From an uncultured Opitutia bacterium (lineage in GTDB: Bacteria > Verrucomicrobiota > Verrucomicrobiia > Opitutales > Opitutaceae), in assembly GCA_903877135.1 (NCBI GenBank), contig CAIRCN010000074.1, forward strand, positions 62,001-126,000: 64,000 bases of DNA, written 5' to 3'. Every line of letters begins with the position of its first letter. Position 1 is the stretch's first letter. Below the pieces are notes generated by a model. The model saw nothing but the letters and a program-made list of their open reading frames with translations, was not told where the DNA came from and searched no databases. This document shows positions 9,050 through 15,647 of this stretch, piece by piece. The position numbers and the translations under genes were made by a program.

Positions 9050-10352
9050 GTGAAAGGCATGGAGTCGTTACGGTTTTTTGCCAACTTGTCGCGTATGAAA
9101 GCGAACCGGCATTCCCGTCCAATGGCACGTGCGGGGCGGCTGGAAGCGGTTGCCGAGGTGCAGGGGCTCTATGGTCCGTTCACGTTTTCCGAAAGGTTGT
9201 TTCAGCGGATTTGGCTGCAGGGCGACTTTGACCGCGGGGCCGCAAACACTTCGGCTGGGCGGCGGGTCCGCGTCATTCATCCTGGCCGCTGGAACCGGCT
9301 GGGTGGACCCGATTTTCGGGATACGCGTGTACAATTCGAGGATGGGGATGAGCGAGTGGGGACTTCGAACTGCATCTGCATGCTGCCGACTGGGTCGAGC
9401 ATGGCCACGCTAACGACCGGGCCTATGACGGAGTGATTCTCCATGTGGTGTTATTTCCGCCGCCGCCGGGGTCGATCACGATTGGGGCGGCGGGACGTGA
9501 AATTCCCGTGCTGCCGTTCCTGCCGTGGCTGCATCACGATTTGGAGGAATATGCGGCGGAGGAGGCGGTGGAGCACTTGGCGAACCGGCCGGCTTCTCTG
9601 GTTCTGGAACGACTTGGTGGGCTGGCGCCAGCGCAGCTAGATCAGTTACTGCGGGGGCACTCCGAGCAGCGCTGGAGGCAGAAAGTGCACTTTGCCCGGC
9701 TGCGCATGCAACGACTCGGCTGGGAGGCGGCCTGCCACTCCACCGCACTGGAGATATTGGGCTACCGGTTCAATCGCACCCCGATGCTCCGGGTTGCCGG
9801 TCAATGGCCACTGGCCGCGTGGGCCGGCGGTGGGATCGACGTTAGGAAGTTTTCCAGGGCGAGTCGGAGGCTTGGACGGTGCAGGGAGTGCGACCGGCAA
9901 ATCACCCGCGGGCGCGGTTGCGATAATACGCGGCGTGGACCTCCGCGCGCCCCGATCGGCCGGCGCGGCTAGCAGAAACGGAAACGGAGTTTTCTGCGAT
10001 CGGCGCCGCGGAGACGACAGAGTCTGTGCGCCGGACTCATCGCTTCCGCGCTATGCGCGACGCGATGGCCGCGTCGGTTTGCGGCCCGGCGATCTCCGGC
10101 ACGCGGTTCGACAATCTTGTCTGCGACGGCTTCCTACCGTTGCTCGCCACGCGCGGCGGGATTTACGAGTTTAGCTATTGGACGCATTGGTTTCCCGGCG
10201 ACCTGCCGCCGTTGGTGGGGCGCGCTCTGCGGGATCTCGGAGTCTTTACTGGTCGAACCAGCCCGGCCTGTCACGGCACGGCGCAGAGGCTGCTGGGCTG
10301 GCTGATCGAGTGTGAGCGCCAAACTTCGGCTGCGGCGGGGAGCGGGGCTTGA
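9050..10352 (+). pseudogene. DUF2851 family protein, broken by two frameshifts and a stop
   Basis: Three consecutive frames together give a near-complete DUF2851 protein of unknown function. Frame 2 encodes GLYGPFTFSERLFQRIW up to about 9355. Frame 1 resumes with GDFELHLHAADWVEHGH. After about 9855 frame 3 encodes EAWTVQGVRPANHPRARLR, then an in-frame TAA where the family has Gln, then YAAW and a normal C-terminus (FPGDLPPLVGRALRDLG). Both frameshifts look like single-base losses in homopolymers (GGGG near 9358, TTTT near 9855): adding one base back restores VGDFEL and KFFQGE. Three lesions make a true pseudogene more likely than a single read error. The start is uncertain (GTG 9050 or ATG 9059). 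Confidence 0.85.
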
Positions 10353-10378
10353 CAAGATTTGTGGGCAAACGGTAGTTT
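10349..10378 (+). promoter_or_regulatory. Candidate promoter for the nusA operon
   Basis: A perfect TTGACA -35 at 10349-10354 is followed after 18 bases by TAGTTT at 10373-10378, a weak -10. It overlaps the last codons of the DUF2851 remnant. Transcription would begin near 10385, just ahead of the terminator-like leader. Confidence 0.45.
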
Positions 10379-10396
10379 CACCAACTCAACAACACT

Positions 10397-10436
10397 CACT
10401 TTTCTAAAAGTGGGCCCTGCGGCCCGCTTTTTTTTT
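10397..10436 (+). terminator. Rho-independent terminator/attenuator in the nusA leader
   Basis: An 11-bp stem (AAAAGTGGGCC at 10406-10416, GGCCCGCTTTT at 10421-10431, one T-G pair) with loop CTGC, ending in nine Ts (10428-10436). It ends only 16 bases before the nusA ATG. The upstream CACTTTT (10397-10403) can pair with the same AAAAGTG arm (10406-10412), so two hairpins are mutually exclusive. It may simply end upstream transcription, or it may regulate nusA. Confidence 0.7.
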
Positions 10437-10452
10437 CCCACCTACCAGCCTT

Positions 10453-11679
10453 ATGAGCAGCGAAATTTTGTCCGTCCTCGAATACATGGAGAAGGAAAAG
10501 GGGATTCCGCGCGCCGACATGATCGCCACGATCGCGAACGCGTTGAAAACCGCGGCGCAAAAGGGGGTTAACTCCGGCCAGGAACTCCGGATCGACATCA
10601 ACCCGAAGAACGGCCAGCTCCACGCCTGGGCTGTGCTCAAGGTCGTCGATTCCATCAGCAATCCCAAGACGGAGATTCATGTTGAAAAGGCGCAGGCTGT
10701 TAAGCCCGGTGCGCTCATCGGGGAGATGATCGAAAAAGAAATCGATCCCGCCACGCTCGGCCGCATCGCGGCGCAGACGGCCCGGCAGGCCGTGATGCAG
10801 CGCCTGCGGCAGTTCGAGAAGGACCGCATTTTCGACGACTTCAAGGATCAGGTCGGAAACATCGTGACGGGCACCGTGCGCCGGCGCGAACGCAATGACC
10901 TGTTTGTCGACCTCGGTAAGGCCGAGGCGGTCATGCCCGGCAAGGAGCAGGTGCCCGGCGAGGAATATCAGCCTGGCGAGCGGATTCGCTGCCTCCTGCT
11001 TAATATCGAGAGCACGCCGCGCGGTCCCGAGATCATCCTGACCCGGAGCAGTCCGAAGTTTGTGCGTCGGCTCTTTGAGCTTGAGGTGACGGAGATCGCC
11101 GATGGCACGGTGAAGATCGAGGCGTTTGCCCGCGAACCGGGTTACCGCACGAAGATCGCCGTCACGAGCGCTGACTCCAAGGTCGATCCGGTCGGTGCCT
11201 GCGTCGGCGCCCGCGGTGCGCGGGTGAAAACGATCGTGCGCGAACTGAACGGCGAGAAGATCGACATCATCCGCTATTTTGCCGATCCACGCGAAATGAT
11301 CATCGAGGCGCTGAAGCCCGCCGTGCCGCGGGAGATCATCGTGGACGACAAGACCCACCGCATTTTGCTCCGAGTCGCGGCCGACGATCTGGCGATCGCC
11401 ATCGGGCGCAAGGGCCAGAACGCGCGCCTCACATCGCGGCTGATTGGCTGGCGGCTCGACATCGAGGAATTCCACGCCGCGGGCGACGATCCGCGCGGCA
11501 ACGCCATCGCCTCGCTGGTGAAAGCCTTTGCGCTCGACGCCGGTATCGCCGGCCGCCTGGTCGACATGGGTATCAATTCCCCGGCGGCATTCGAGGGCGT
11601 CGAGGCGCCTGACCTGGTCGATGCGGGTTTCACCGCCGAGGAGGCCGAGGCCATCATCGGCCGCGTCACCAAGTCCTGA
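10453..11679 (+). CDS. nusA: Transcription termination/antitermination factor NusA
   Basis: A 408-residue cytoplasmic RNA polymerase-binding factor that promotes pausing, termination and antitermination. Domains in order: N-terminal RNAP-binding domain (about 1-130), S1 domain ([20 protein letters not shown], about 135-200), KH1 ([19 protein letters not shown]), KH2 ([18 protein letters not shown]), and a short helix-hairpin-helix tail (about 360-408). This is the short form, without the enterobacterial pair of acidic repeats. It heads nusA-infB-rbfA-nrnA-truB-ribF. No rimP lies upstream, where a DUF2851 remnant sits instead. A terminator-like hairpin just before its start suggests autoregulation. 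Confidence 0.97.
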
Positions 11680-11686
11680 CCGCCTT

Positions 11687-11699
11687 AACCGTCATTTTC
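11687..11699 (+). promoter_or_regulatory. Shared 13-base motif upstream of infB
   Basis: AACCGTCATTTTC lies 20 bases before the infB start. The identical 13-mer lies 12 bases before the ahcY start at 41316-41328. Both follow a CCGCCTT string after the previous gene's stop. The function is unknown; a role in translation initiation without a Shine-Dalgarno site is a guess. Confidence 0.3.
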
Positions 11700-11719
11700 T
11701 TTTTTCCGATCTGCACCTG

Positions 11720-14173
11720 ATGAGCCTCCGCATTCACGAACTAGCCAAACGCCACAACATGGAAGGCAAGGACATGCTGGCCCTGCTCAGGGAGCGAGGC
11801 TATGTCTCCGCGGACACCAAATCGGTTTCGAGCACAGTCAGTAAAATTTACATCGAGGAGATAGAAAAGGAATTTGCGGCCAAAGCGACCGCCACAGCCA
11901 AGGCTTCCGCGCCAGTGGAGTCGGCAATTTCGGCACCTGCGATCCAGGCTCCGGACGCGGAAGCTCCTGTCGTGCGGTTGCCGGCCGGTGCCTTTGTAAA
12001 ATCCAAGGATGATGTGGTAAAAGAGCGCGAGGTTGCAGCCGCGGCGAAAGTGGTGGCGCATCAACCCGCCGCGATCGCTCCATTTCCGGTGAAAGCACCG
12101 CCGCCGTTACCCGCACCAGCAGCGCCGCGGTTTATTTCGGCTCCGCCCCCGCTGCCGCGCATGGCACCACCGCCCGTGCCCGTCTTGCCGCCCAAGGTTT
12201 TCGCGCCGCCGCCCGTGGCCCCGGTCCCGGTGGTGATCCCCCCGGTAGCGAAGAGTCCGGTGCAGCCTCCACCGCCGCCGCCACGTTTTGCCCCGATCGC
12301 CCCGCCGCCGCTCCCGGGTTCGTCACCCGCGCCTGTGCCGTCGCTTTCCGCTTCGGCGGCTGCGCCCGCCGAGCCGCGGACCGGCGAGATCAAGCTCATC
12401 CAACTGAAGCCGCCGATCGTCGTCCGCGATTTCGCCACGGCGCTCGGGCTCAAGCCGTTCAAGCTCATTTCTGAACTGAACCAGGCGGGCGGTTTCGCCT
12501 CGATGAATTCCAACATCGAGGAGGCCGTCGCCGTCAAGGTCGCCGAGAAACACGGGTTCCTGCTCGAGATCAAACACCGCGGCGATCCCGCCGTGCAGCA
12601 GCTGGCGCACAAGGAAAAAAAGGAAAAAAAGCCCGAGGAGGACGAGTCCAAGCATCTCGTGTCGCGCCCGCCCGTCGTGTGCATCCTCGGCCATGTCGAT
12701 CACGGCAAGACCTCGCTGCTCGACGCCATCCGCAAGGCCAATGTCGCCGCAGGCGAGGCCGGCGGCATCACGCAGCACATCGGCGCCTATCAGATCGAGT
12801 TTCAGGGGCGTAAACTCACCTTCCTCGACACGCCCGGTCACGCGGCGTTTTCCAAGATGCGCGCCCGCGGCGCCGAGGTCACAGACATCGCGGTGCTCGT
12901 GGTGGCGGCCGACGACGGCTTCATGCCGCAGACCGACGAAGCGTTGAAGCATGTGCAGACCGCGAAGGTCGCACTGATCGTCGCGGCTAACAAAATGGAC
13001 GCCAAGGGCGCGAATCTCGACCAGGTCAAGACCCAGATGCAGCAGCGCAACATCGCCCCCGAGGACTGGGGTGGCGAGACGATCACCGTGCCGGTCTCTG
13101 CGACCAAAGGGCAAGGTATCGACACCCTGCTTGAGATGATTCTCCTCCAGGCCGACGTGCTTGAACTCAAGGCCAACCCGAAGGCTCCGGCCAGCGGCGT
13201 GGTCATCGAGTCAGAGATCGACTTTGGCCGCGGCCCGCTGGCCACCGTCATCGTGCAGCGCGGCACGCTGCGCGTCGGCGACGCCATCGTCAGCGGTCCC
13301 AACTACGCGAAGGTGCGCGCCATGTTCGACGACAAGGGCGAGAACCTCAAGGAAGCCCCCCCCGGCACGCCGGTGCGCGTGATCGGCTGGTCGGGCACGC
13401 CCGACAGCGGCGCCACGTTCAAGGCCGTCAAAAATTCCCGCGAGGCCGAGAAGATCGCCGAGGAGGAGCAGTTCCGCCTCAAGCAGGCCGTCACCACCGC
13501 GGCCGCGGTGCCGAAGGAAGTTTCCGTGGAGCAACTCTTCGCCAACATCGCCGCGACCACGGCGAAGGTGCTCAAGCTCATCATCAAGACCGACGTCTTT
13601 GGCTCCGCGGAAGCGGTGCGCTCCGTGCTCGAGGGCATCAAAAGCGCGAAGGTTTCGGTCGAGATCGTTTCGGTCGAGGTGGGCCTCGTCACAAAAAACG
13701 ACGTGCTCATGGCCGGCGCCGCCGGCTCGGTCATCGTCGGTTTCCACACGAAGCTGGAGCCCGGGGTCACTTCGCTCGCGAAGCACCACAGTGTCCGCAT
13801 CGAGACTTACGACATTATTTACGAGATGGGCGACAAGGTGCGCGAGATGATGGCCGACCTGCTCGATCCCGACCTCAAAGAAATCAAGCTCGGCGGAGCC
13901 GAGGTCCGGCAGGTGTTTCCGCTGGCGAAAGGTTTTGTGGCGGGCTGTCTCGTCACCGAGGGCAAAATCATCCGCAACGGTGCCGCCCGCTTGCGCCGCG
14001 GCCGGGAGATTGTTTATGAGGGCAAGATCGCCACGCTCAAACGATTCAAGGACGACGCCAACGAAGTCCGCGCCGGCCTTGAATGCGGTGTCAAACTCGA
14101 CGACTTCAACGGCTACCAGGCCGGCGACGCCATTGAGGTATACGAGGTGCAAAAGGTCCGGGCCTCGCTGTAA
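11720..14173 (+). CDS. infB: Translation initiation factor IF-2
   Basis: An 817-residue GTPase that places fMet-tRNA on the 30S subunit. The N-terminal IF2_N module ([20 protein letters not shown]) is followed by a long Pro/Ala-rich linker (about 60-220), a second IF2_N-like segment, then the G domain with GHVDHGKTS (G1), DTPGH (G3), NKMD (G4) and VSATKGQG. Domains II, III and the C-terminal fMet-tRNA-binding domain complete it. The ATG at 11720 gives the canonical N-terminus; the open frame extends upstream inside nusA but without similarity. It lies 40 bases after nusA, and no Shine-Dalgarno sequence precedes the start. Confidence 0.97.
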
Positions 14174-14175
14174 TT

Positions 14176-14255
14176 TTTTGATTTTCGGTTCTCGATTTTC
14201 GATTGGTCGCGGCGGATCTTGAAAATCGAAAATTCAAAATCCAGAATCGAAAATC
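14176..14255. repeat. Imperfect inverted repeat between infB and rbfA
   Basis: A left arm rich in GATTTTCG (14176-14204) is largely complementary to a right arm rich in CGAAAATC (14221-14255), with a GC-rich centre. The arms are also internally repetitive, with the TTTTCGAT unit repeated. There is no clean T-run after it, so it looks like an intergenic repeat or mRNA hairpin rather than a classic terminator. Confidence 0.6.
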
Positions 14256-14257
14256 CC

Positions 14258-14626
14258 ATGAGCAACCGCACGCTCCGCGTCAACGAGCTGATTCAGCGCG
14301 AAATCAGTGCCATCCTCCGGCAGGATTACCAGAGCGAGTCCGTGGCCATCACGATCACGGAGGTGCGGGTCGCGCCCGACCTGCGCGATGCTCGGGTGTT
14401 TGTCTCCGTGGTGGGCGAGGAGGCGGCGCAGACCGCCCGGCTGCGCTGGCTGCGTGCCCACGCCCGCCCGATCCGGCAGGAACTGGGCCGTCGCATTGTG
14501 CTCAAATACATGCCGCGCTTCGAATACCTGCTCGATCATTCCGTCGAGCGCGGCACCCACCTCCTGAAACTTCTGGACGAAGTCGCCCCGGCGCCCGATG
14601 CCGCCCTGCCCCCCGAGGAAACCTGA
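14258..14626 (+). CDS. rbfA: Ribosome-binding factor A
   Basis: A 122-residue KH-fold protein that matures the 30S subunit and 16S 5' end. Family hallmarks are RVNELIQREISAILRQ at the N-terminus, ITEVRVAPDLRDARVFVSV in the middle, and RFEYLLDHSVERGTHL toward the end. The ATG at 14258 is preferred because the preceding in-frame codons come from the intergenic repeat. It lies between infB and nrnA as in many bacteria, and its stop is one base before the GTG of nrnA. Confidence 0.95.
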   Translation: MSNRTLRVNELIQREISAILRQDYQSESVAITITEVRVAPDLRDARVFVSVVGEEAAQTARLRWLRAHARPIRQELGRRIVLKYMPRFEYLLDHSVERGTHLLKLLDEVAPAPDAALPPEET

Positions 14627-14627
14627 C

Positions 14628-15647
14628 GTGGAGAAATTCTACCCCGAATTCTCGGCGCGCTTCGCGCAACTCGTGACTGGTCTCGCCGGCCGTCCGGTCG
14701 CCGTGGTCGGCCACGCCCGGCCCGACGGGGATTGCATCGGCTCGCAGATCGCCCTAGCGCGCGTGCTGCAGACGCTGGGATTTGAAACCGTCTGCGTGAA
14801 TGCCGACGCCGTGCCGCGCCGGCTCCAGTTTCTGGTGACGGGTATGCGATTCCTGCGCACGGACGAGTTGCTGCTGGACCACACGGACTATGCTGCGGTG
14901 TTTGTCGATTGCGCCGACCACGAGCGGGCAGGCGAGCGGCTCAAGGCGCAGTTTCCGGCCCCGGTGGCCTGCATCGACCATCACCTGTCCAATGTCGGCT
15001 TTGCGGACTGCAATCTGGTGGACAGCGGGTCGGCCGCGACCTGCGAAATCTTGGCGGGCCTGTTTTTCGACAACGGGCTGACGGTCGATGCTCAGACAGC
15101 GCAGGGGCTCTACACCGGCATCCTCACCGACACCGGCCAGTTCCGCTTCACCTCCACCTCGCGACGGACCTTTCTATTGGCGGCCGAACTGATGGCGCGC
15201 GGGGCGCAGCCGACTGAGGCGGGGTTTGAGCTCTACGAGCGGGAAACGACGGGCAAACTCCAGCTCCTGCAGCGTTTTCTCTCGTCGCTGCGCATGGAGT
15301 GCGACGGTCGCGTCTGCATCGGCACGCTTTCCGGTGGCATCTTTGCTGAAACCGGCACCAGCGCCGAGGATACGGAGGGTTTGGTGGACTATGCCCGCTG
15401 CATCGACGGCGTGGACGTCGGAGTCCTCATCGAGGAGCGCGCCGATGGCACGGTAAAGGCGAGCCTGCGTTCCAGAAATCCCATTTTCCGTCTCGACCAG
15501 ATCGCCGGGAAATTTAACGGCGGCGGCCACGCGTGCGCGGCCGGCCTCAACCTCAAGCAGGGCGCTCACGATTTCCGCGAACGCCTCGTGGCAGCACTGG
15601 CGCGACAGTTTGCCGCGATCGAGGTCAGTGGAAATCCCGCATCGTGA
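14628..15647 (+). CDS. nrnA: DHH/DHHA1 phosphoesterase, NrnA-like nanoRNase
   Basis: A 339-residue protein of the NrnA/pAp-phosphatase group that degrades short oligonucleotides or cyclic dinucleotide products. Metal-binding motifs are visible: [12 protein letters not shown] (motif I), VDCADHER (motif II) and IDHHLSN (the DHH motif). The C-terminal DHHA1 substrate domain ends in the typical [12 protein letters not shown]. The GTG at 14628 is chosen because it follows the rbfA stop by one base and gives a family-like N-terminus. An ATG at 14598 would overlap rbfA. The stop overlaps the truB ATG by one base. Confidence 0.92.

Follow-up and report, generated by a model that had tools for sequence, protein, structure and literature searches.

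The nusA locus of an Opitutaceae-like genome

The stretch of DNA analysed here (hereafter the window; 64,000 nucleotides of contig CAIRCN010000074.1, assembly GCA_903877135.1) belongs to an Opitutaceae-like genome of the Verrucomicrobiota, and the named relatives whose NusA proteins are about 85-90% identical to its own are Opitutaceae or Opitutae MAGs. On its forward strand lies a run of genes that starts with nusA (Table 1), of which nusA, infB and rbfA probably constitute a single operon; farther downstream are two genes that we take, from their translations, to be truB and ribF. The short interval between nusA and the preceding open reading frame contains the elements with which this work is concerned: a promoter-like pair, a leader, two sequence arms able to compete for a third, and a run of T's.

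Table 1. Features of the nusA leader and of the genes that follow it, in window coordinates
Feature	Position	Strand	Remarks
Promoter	10349-10378	+	TTGACA 10349-10354, 18-bp spacer, TAGTTT 10373-10378
Short leader, sequence-variable	10385-10396	+	CT at 10395-10396 can lengthen the early hairpin to 8 bp
Arm 1, CACTTT	10397-10402	+	candidate competitor (antiterminator-like) arm; columns 85-93% conserved in 94 sequences
Arm 2, AAAAGTGGGCC	10406-10416	+	terminator 5' arm, common to the early hairpin; has the GTGGG motif of rimP-leaders
Terminator loop, CTGC	10417-10420	+	
Arm 3, GGCCCGCTTTT	10421-10431	+	terminator 3' arm
U-tract, nine T's	10428-10436	+	
nusA	10453-11679	+	NusA_N, S1 and KH domains; ATG at 10453
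infB	11720-14173	+	next gene after nusA; presumed start within ORF 11528-14173
rbfA	14219-14626	+	downstream of infB
DHH-family gene	14598-15647	+	downstream of rbfA

The open reading frame that precedes nusA on its strand has its end at 10352 and no Pfam match at an E-value of 0.01. The region from 9050 to 10352 may represent a broken DUF2851-type gene: the ORF at 9050-9436 matches PF11013 over 51 residues and the two ORFs after it have no match at E 0.01, a pattern in which decay, sequencing error and unrelated ORFs are indistinguishable. Inspection by eye revealed no Shine-Dalgarno-like sequence between 10437 and 10452, immediately before nusA; by the same inspection, the leaders of Opitutales are C/A/T-rich before the nusA ATG, and those of other classes often hold a purine-rich stretch there.

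Terminator and promoter upstream of nusA

A first-pass annotation of this DNA, made from the letters alone, had described a terminator-like stem of 11 bp followed by nine Ts, with its end 16 bases upstream of nusA, and sequence, predicted folding and shuffled controls all confirm it. The stem is made of 11 pairs, including one U.G, and the U-tract stops 16 bases short of the ATG. The predicted folding energy is -17.5 kcal/mol over 55 nt and -17.1 kcal/mol over 35 nt (z-scores of -3.9 and -4.2), and none of 200 shuffled sequences folds as well. Terminator-like sites as such are not rare in this DNA, a plain pattern scan of 10 kb returning 11 of them against 9.8 expected; the nusA site is by far the best, with 11 pairs against seven for the next. 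When 48 window ORFs of at least 120 aa were chosen by length and the 110 nt upstream of each inspected for a terminator, a single one had it, and that one was nusA. Membership in a repeat family was considered and rejected. The genome holds a single mismatch-free copy of the motif, and one further place matches with three mismatches; a reversed control yields just as many such places.

Across relatives, 154 distinct upstream regions (20 of the 154 from other classes or phyla) were given to the terminator finder, which placed a terminator in the 110 nt before nusA in 126, compared to 27 of 1540 dinucleotide shuffles. The figure of 126 is a lower bound, since some leaders in which the motif is plainly visible (e.g. 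L013 and L039) escaped the finder. The terminators found lie 11-79 nt from the gene, and in 64 of the 126 the T run is of exactly nine. Ahead of the promoter and arm tests, 26 regions were removed by hand (the 20 from other classes or phyla and six order-level ones with no visible motif), leaving 128, all with TTGAC; 94 of these were aligned, and the 34 excluded were mostly divergent. In this alignment the GTGGG columns are almost invariant (G in 94, T in 93, and G in 94, 94 and 94 sequences) and the terminator stem shows clear covariation, with 96.7% of cells paired, 29 cells changed on both sides and none of 500 shuffles reaching the observed score. The conserved U in GUGGG faces position 10426 of arm 3, where 100 of the 102 readable leaders among the 128 have G, forming a U.G wobble, and 25 of the 41 readable leaders among 66 from other classes have A.

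We built a covariance model from 48 of the 94 leaders (52 were picked as diverse and four dropped) and ran it on 95 genomes. The nusA N-terminus was located in 86 of them; 69 of these had a match at nusA, always on the same strand and 9-41 nt upstream, and the other 17 had none. At family level (61 genomes, five of them without a located nusA N-terminus) the model matched in 56 of 56 located genes, comprising 34 that had contributed to the model and 22 of 22 that had not, although some of the latter are close to model members and the matches are partly so by construction. At order level it matched in 13 of 30 genes, six of them model builders and seven among 24 non-builders. Of the 99 matches listed, 30 lie elsewhere than at nusA and are mostly weaker than those at nusA, with one genome (G079) in which an off-nusA match outscores the one at nusA. 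Ten of these 30 were retrieved as candidate further targets (E-values from 1.9e-5 to 0.006) and set aside, as by eye they resemble 3' terminators, a judgement based on a stop triplet shortly upstream and made without gene calling.

The element extends beyond Opitutales. From a capped listing of the 280 genomes with a NusA_N match we took 68 upstream regions so as to cover a spread of families (a well-sampled one, f29, is not among them) and discarded two Opitutales rows; the terminator motif precedes nusA in 48 of the remaining 66, often as GAGTGGG...CCCACTC with T's, and TTGAC lies upstream of the motif in 35 of those 48. For one of the 48 (G224) the pattern was placed on the wrong stretch, and the motif is present farther on.

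The first-pass annotation had also placed a TTGACA promoter before the terminator, and at the level of sequence this holds well. In the window, the TTGACA/TAGTTT pair was not in the output of a generic promoter scan, and its -10 element matches the consensus at only three of six positions. Comparison makes the case: of the 126 regions with a terminator found, 125 have TTGAC 30-95 nt before the stem, mostly at 55-58 nt; TTGACA is exact in 117 of the 128 Opitutales-like regions, all of which had been kept for having TTGAC; and a TAnnnT box occurs at a spacing of 16-19 bp in 83 of the 128, against 9.5 expected. Transcription would then start near 10384-10387, with a leader of about 20 nt between this presumed start and the terminator.

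This arrangement bears directly on whether the hairpin might instead end an upstream transcription unit, as had been offered as an alternative in the first pass. The same-strand ORF ending just before the leader fits such a role; its lack of a Pfam match does not help it, and the element is found upstream of nusA in every one of the located family-level genes. With a conserved promoter-like pair standing between the upstream gene and the stem, we reject this explanation as very improbable. The attenuator anatomy proposed in front of nusA (its own promoter, a short leader and a terminator) is instead conserved as a unit together with the gene, and this joint conservation indicates a real attenuator-like leader.

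The early hairpin and its candidate upstream arm

An early hairpin of 6 bp with a loop of four can form between arm 1, upstream of the terminator, and AAAGTG (10407-10412) in the foot of arm 2. The pairing had been put forward as CACTTTT with AAAAGTG; six of those pairs stand, whereas the seventh would leave a loop of 2 nt. Folded alone, the early hairpin has a predicted energy of -4.3 kcal/mol, which two of 200 shuffles equal or better.

In the alignment of 94 sequences, the conservation of arm 1 exceeds that of the adjoining leader columns, and 89.6% of arm 1:arm 2 cells are paired. Excess covariation between the two arms was not found in this alignment, 489 of 500 shuffles scoring at least as high (500 of 500 when nine pairs are considered). 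Column 83 is instructive in this respect. Where arm 2 carries G for A, arm 1 provides 27 U.G pairs and no C-G pair, and 18 cells show C in arm 3. Because arm 1 keeps its U opposite this change, we regard it as conserved and compatible with wobble pairing, its co-evolution with arm 2 being unsupported in the 94 sequences.

Pairing was further evaluated on 122 of the 128 regions that could be anchored, which we split into 84 nearer and 38 distant sequences. Some of the sequences are related, so that independence is overstated and all P-values given here are optimistic: scored against its own arm 2 rather than with swapped leaders, the distant group reaches 12.89 versus 10.58 (P=2e-5, n=38) and the nearer group shows a slight difference, 12.29 versus 12.01 (P=0.026, n=84); in a comparison of folding energy with leader-shuffled controls, the exposed 5' part is the more stable in 67 of 84 nearer sequences (P=2.7e-9), in 23 of 38 distant ones (P=0.008) and, outside Opitutales, in 21 of 48 (P=0.67); and outside the order the pairing score is 10.53, versus 9.87 for shuffled (P=0.018) and 10.01 for swapped leaders (P=0.057). 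Taken singly, 18 of 84 nearer and 11 of 38 distant sequences reach the 0.05 level by pairing score, and 18 of 84 and 3 of 38, respectively, by energy. In some leaders both arms have changed and still match, as in L070 (CATTATCC with GGATAGTG) and L091 (CACCTT with AAGGTG). Early folding is thus stabilised in Opitutales and at most weak in other classes, which makes arm 1 an apparent feature of that order; from the sequences compared, it looks like an Opitutales addition, and the second hairpin may be a lineage-specific modulator rather than the core of a switch.

At equilibrium, the terminator (-17.5 kcal/mol) is ahead of the alternative fold, in which the early hairpin is accompanied by a 4-bp remnant (-10.8 kcal/mol), by about 7 kcal/mol. 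The order of synthesis changes this picture. If the polymerase hides 12 nt, the optimal predicted fold while the 3' end crosses the U-tract is the early hairpin, as an 8-bp form of -7.5 kcal/mol for the first eight U's and then as the 6-bp form with the remnant; this timing depends on the 12-nt footprint, and fewer hidden nucleotides would allow the terminator to form earlier. The folding model therefore allows kinetic competition between the early hairpin and the terminator, and does not allow it at equilibrium.

The notion of a two-hairpin pattern upstream of nusA in relatives fares accordingly: the terminator is conserved and the arm 1:arm 2 pairing is kept in Opitutales, whereas the early hairpin shows no excess of compensatory change in the 94 sequences, is by far the weaker of the two structures (-4.3 versus -17.5) and, in other classes that have the same terminator, is weak at best, leaving a two-hairpin switch only partly supported. 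A simpler explanation is a constitutive partial terminator that fixes operon output at a low level, with arm 1 a by-product of a pyrimidine-rich leader that happens to resemble arm 3. The lack of excess covariation in arm 1 in the 94 sequences and the large advantage of the terminator over the alternative fold favour this explanation; the superior conservation of arm 1 relative to neighbouring leader columns speaks against it. Moreover, a weaker promoter could fix output just as well, yet promoter, terminator and conserved GTGGG recur together in most regions, and we consider a purely constitutive terminator unlikely.

Relation to the rimP-leader and putative control by NusA

Terminators of this kind are known from the rimP-leader (Naville & Gautheret 2010, PMC2965389), described as a short intrinsic terminator with a GGGc...gCCC stem and a T-stretch located before rimP-nusA-infB. 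The nusA leader shares the stem and the T-stretch, and its distance to the gene, 16 nt in the window and 11-79 nt among the 126 sequences, lies within the 4-130 nt given in that paper. In the same paper the general motif is presented without a visible antiterminator, a tandem terminator with one being reported for several Gammaproteobacteria, whereas the nusA leaders of Opitutales carry a conserved candidate upstream arm. Another difference concerns the first gene, which here is nusA rather than rimP. A RimP_N profile matched in none of 57 genomes near the window and in none of 288 across the phylum, where NusA_N matched in 280, each profile having matched in 10 of 14 control genomes; a diverged rimP may have escaped the profile. 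In the window, nusA, infB and rbfA nonetheless adjoin. Given the immediate proximity of nusA and the absence of RimP_N matches, we classify the element not as a rimP-leader proper but as a nusA-proximal variant, and, on the features of its sequence, as a form of this known attenuator.

Other genomes agree with this relationship. The GUGGG...CCC motif stands before rimP, presumed from the position and sequence of the ORF preceding nusA and not from a profile, in five of five loci examined (four from Firmicutes and one from Hydrogenedentota), and E. coli has GGGC...GCCC with T7 before rimP. The gammaproteobacterial rimP leader in Rfam (RF01770) is likewise a cis-regulatory leader of the same operon; its model scores 102 bits in E. 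coli, gives no match in the window at E-values up to 10, and gives none at gathering score in loci L107, L108 and L110. Rfam families as a whole provided only sub-threshold hits for the window, the highest-scoring, L20_leader, reaching 17.2 bits where the threshold is 58.7, and were discarded. Among the open-access titles and abstracts listed, we saw no report of this element from Verrucomicrobiota; PMC2965389, whose species are given in supplementary files, does not have the word Verrucomicrob- in its main text.

What might read the leader is suggested by work on model organisms. PMC2965389 puts NusA first among the candidate readers of the rimP-leader motif, with RimP as another option, and cites NusA as repressing its own operon in E. 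coli; in B. subtilis, according to a review (PMC12288461), nusA is controlled by NusA-stimulated termination in its 5' leader. As in B. subtilis, the nusA operon studied here has an intrinsic terminator in its 5' leader, and by its sequence the leader also has upstream the promoter that a NusA-autoregulated attenuator would require. The Opitutales leaders differ by their candidate competing arm; autoregulation by NusA in B. subtilis is not known to use an antiterminator. As no rimP was detected, reading by RimP is unlikely and NusA is the leading candidate. Autoregulation by NusA is plausible by analogy with these precedents.

We thus judge it probable that the element is a transcription attenuator of the nusA-infB-rbfA operon, most likely limited by NusA and, in Opitutales, with arm 1 as a kinetic competitor. 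RNA polymerase would start at the conserved promoter, transcribe a leader of about 50-55 nt and run into the intrinsic terminator immediately ahead of the nusA ATG, so that NusA, IF2 and RbfA would be made only by polymerases that read through. NusA lengthens pauses and favours the formation of hairpins; when abundant, it would raise termination and limit its own operon, as extrapolated from E. coli and B. subtilis. In Opitutales, arm 1 would pair with the foot of the terminator 5' arm while the polymerase is in the U-tract and the 3' arm has not yet emerged; acting as a kinetic competitor, it would lower basal termination and tie the outcome to the duration of polymerase pausing. In this scheme the terminator is presumed to act in vivo, with NusA as its effector, and arm 1 may lower basal termination, act as a pause hairpin, perhaps of the his type, or be a protein site.

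The last of these options connects with attenuation read by a different factor, such as Csp proteins melting the hairpin, NusG, or an RNA-binding protein on GUGGG or UCACUUU. An arm 1 conserved in sequence without compensation would fit a protein site, and a proposal cited in PMC6511841 has Csp proteins acting as antiterminators on the nusA-infB operon of E. coli. The E. coli data in PMC6511841 do not fit Csp antitermination, however, and we hold a different reader to be quite improbable. Still less can be said for a boxA/nut-type site in the leader through which a Nus complex would bring about read-through. Compared with the boxA consensus, a few leaders contain CTCTTTAACA (L040, L015), and GCTCTTTGAAA is present in the one complete rRNA leader obtained, the single boxA available from a 16S search that found three of 57 genomes and one complete gene. 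CTCTT is not enriched, however, being present in 8 of 122 leaders when shuffles predict 7.8, and the window leader has none; we give this explanation very little chance.

With NusA as the preferred reader, the phylum acquires a broader interest. The rimP-leader has been called the most ubiquitous attenuator in bacteria, and its reader was left between RimP and NusA in PMC2965389. Persistence of the motif in a phylum with no detectable rimP speaks against RimP as a required reader and makes these harmless relatives suited to testing NusA feedback. We tentatively suggest, as a possibility rather than an expectation, that the GUGGG terminator was kept when rimP was gone, that its ancestral reader is therefore the NusA-bound polymerase and not RimP, and that it was rebuilt in Opitutales as a kinetic two-hairpin switch, in which a pre-termination hairpin would compete with the terminator (or serve as a NusA-sensitive pause hairpin) and yield a steeper NusA feedback. 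If so, the phylum would constitute a natural experiment on the ancestral reader of the attenuator. Comparing versions of the element that have the upstream arm with those that lack it could help to show how a simple terminator might acquire an antiterminator-like arm.

Finally, one relative (G052) carries beside its intact nusA a second, diverged nusA-like sequence (C3:2687613-2688619), split into four adjoining pieces near a contig end, which may be a decayed copy or a foreign part of the contig.
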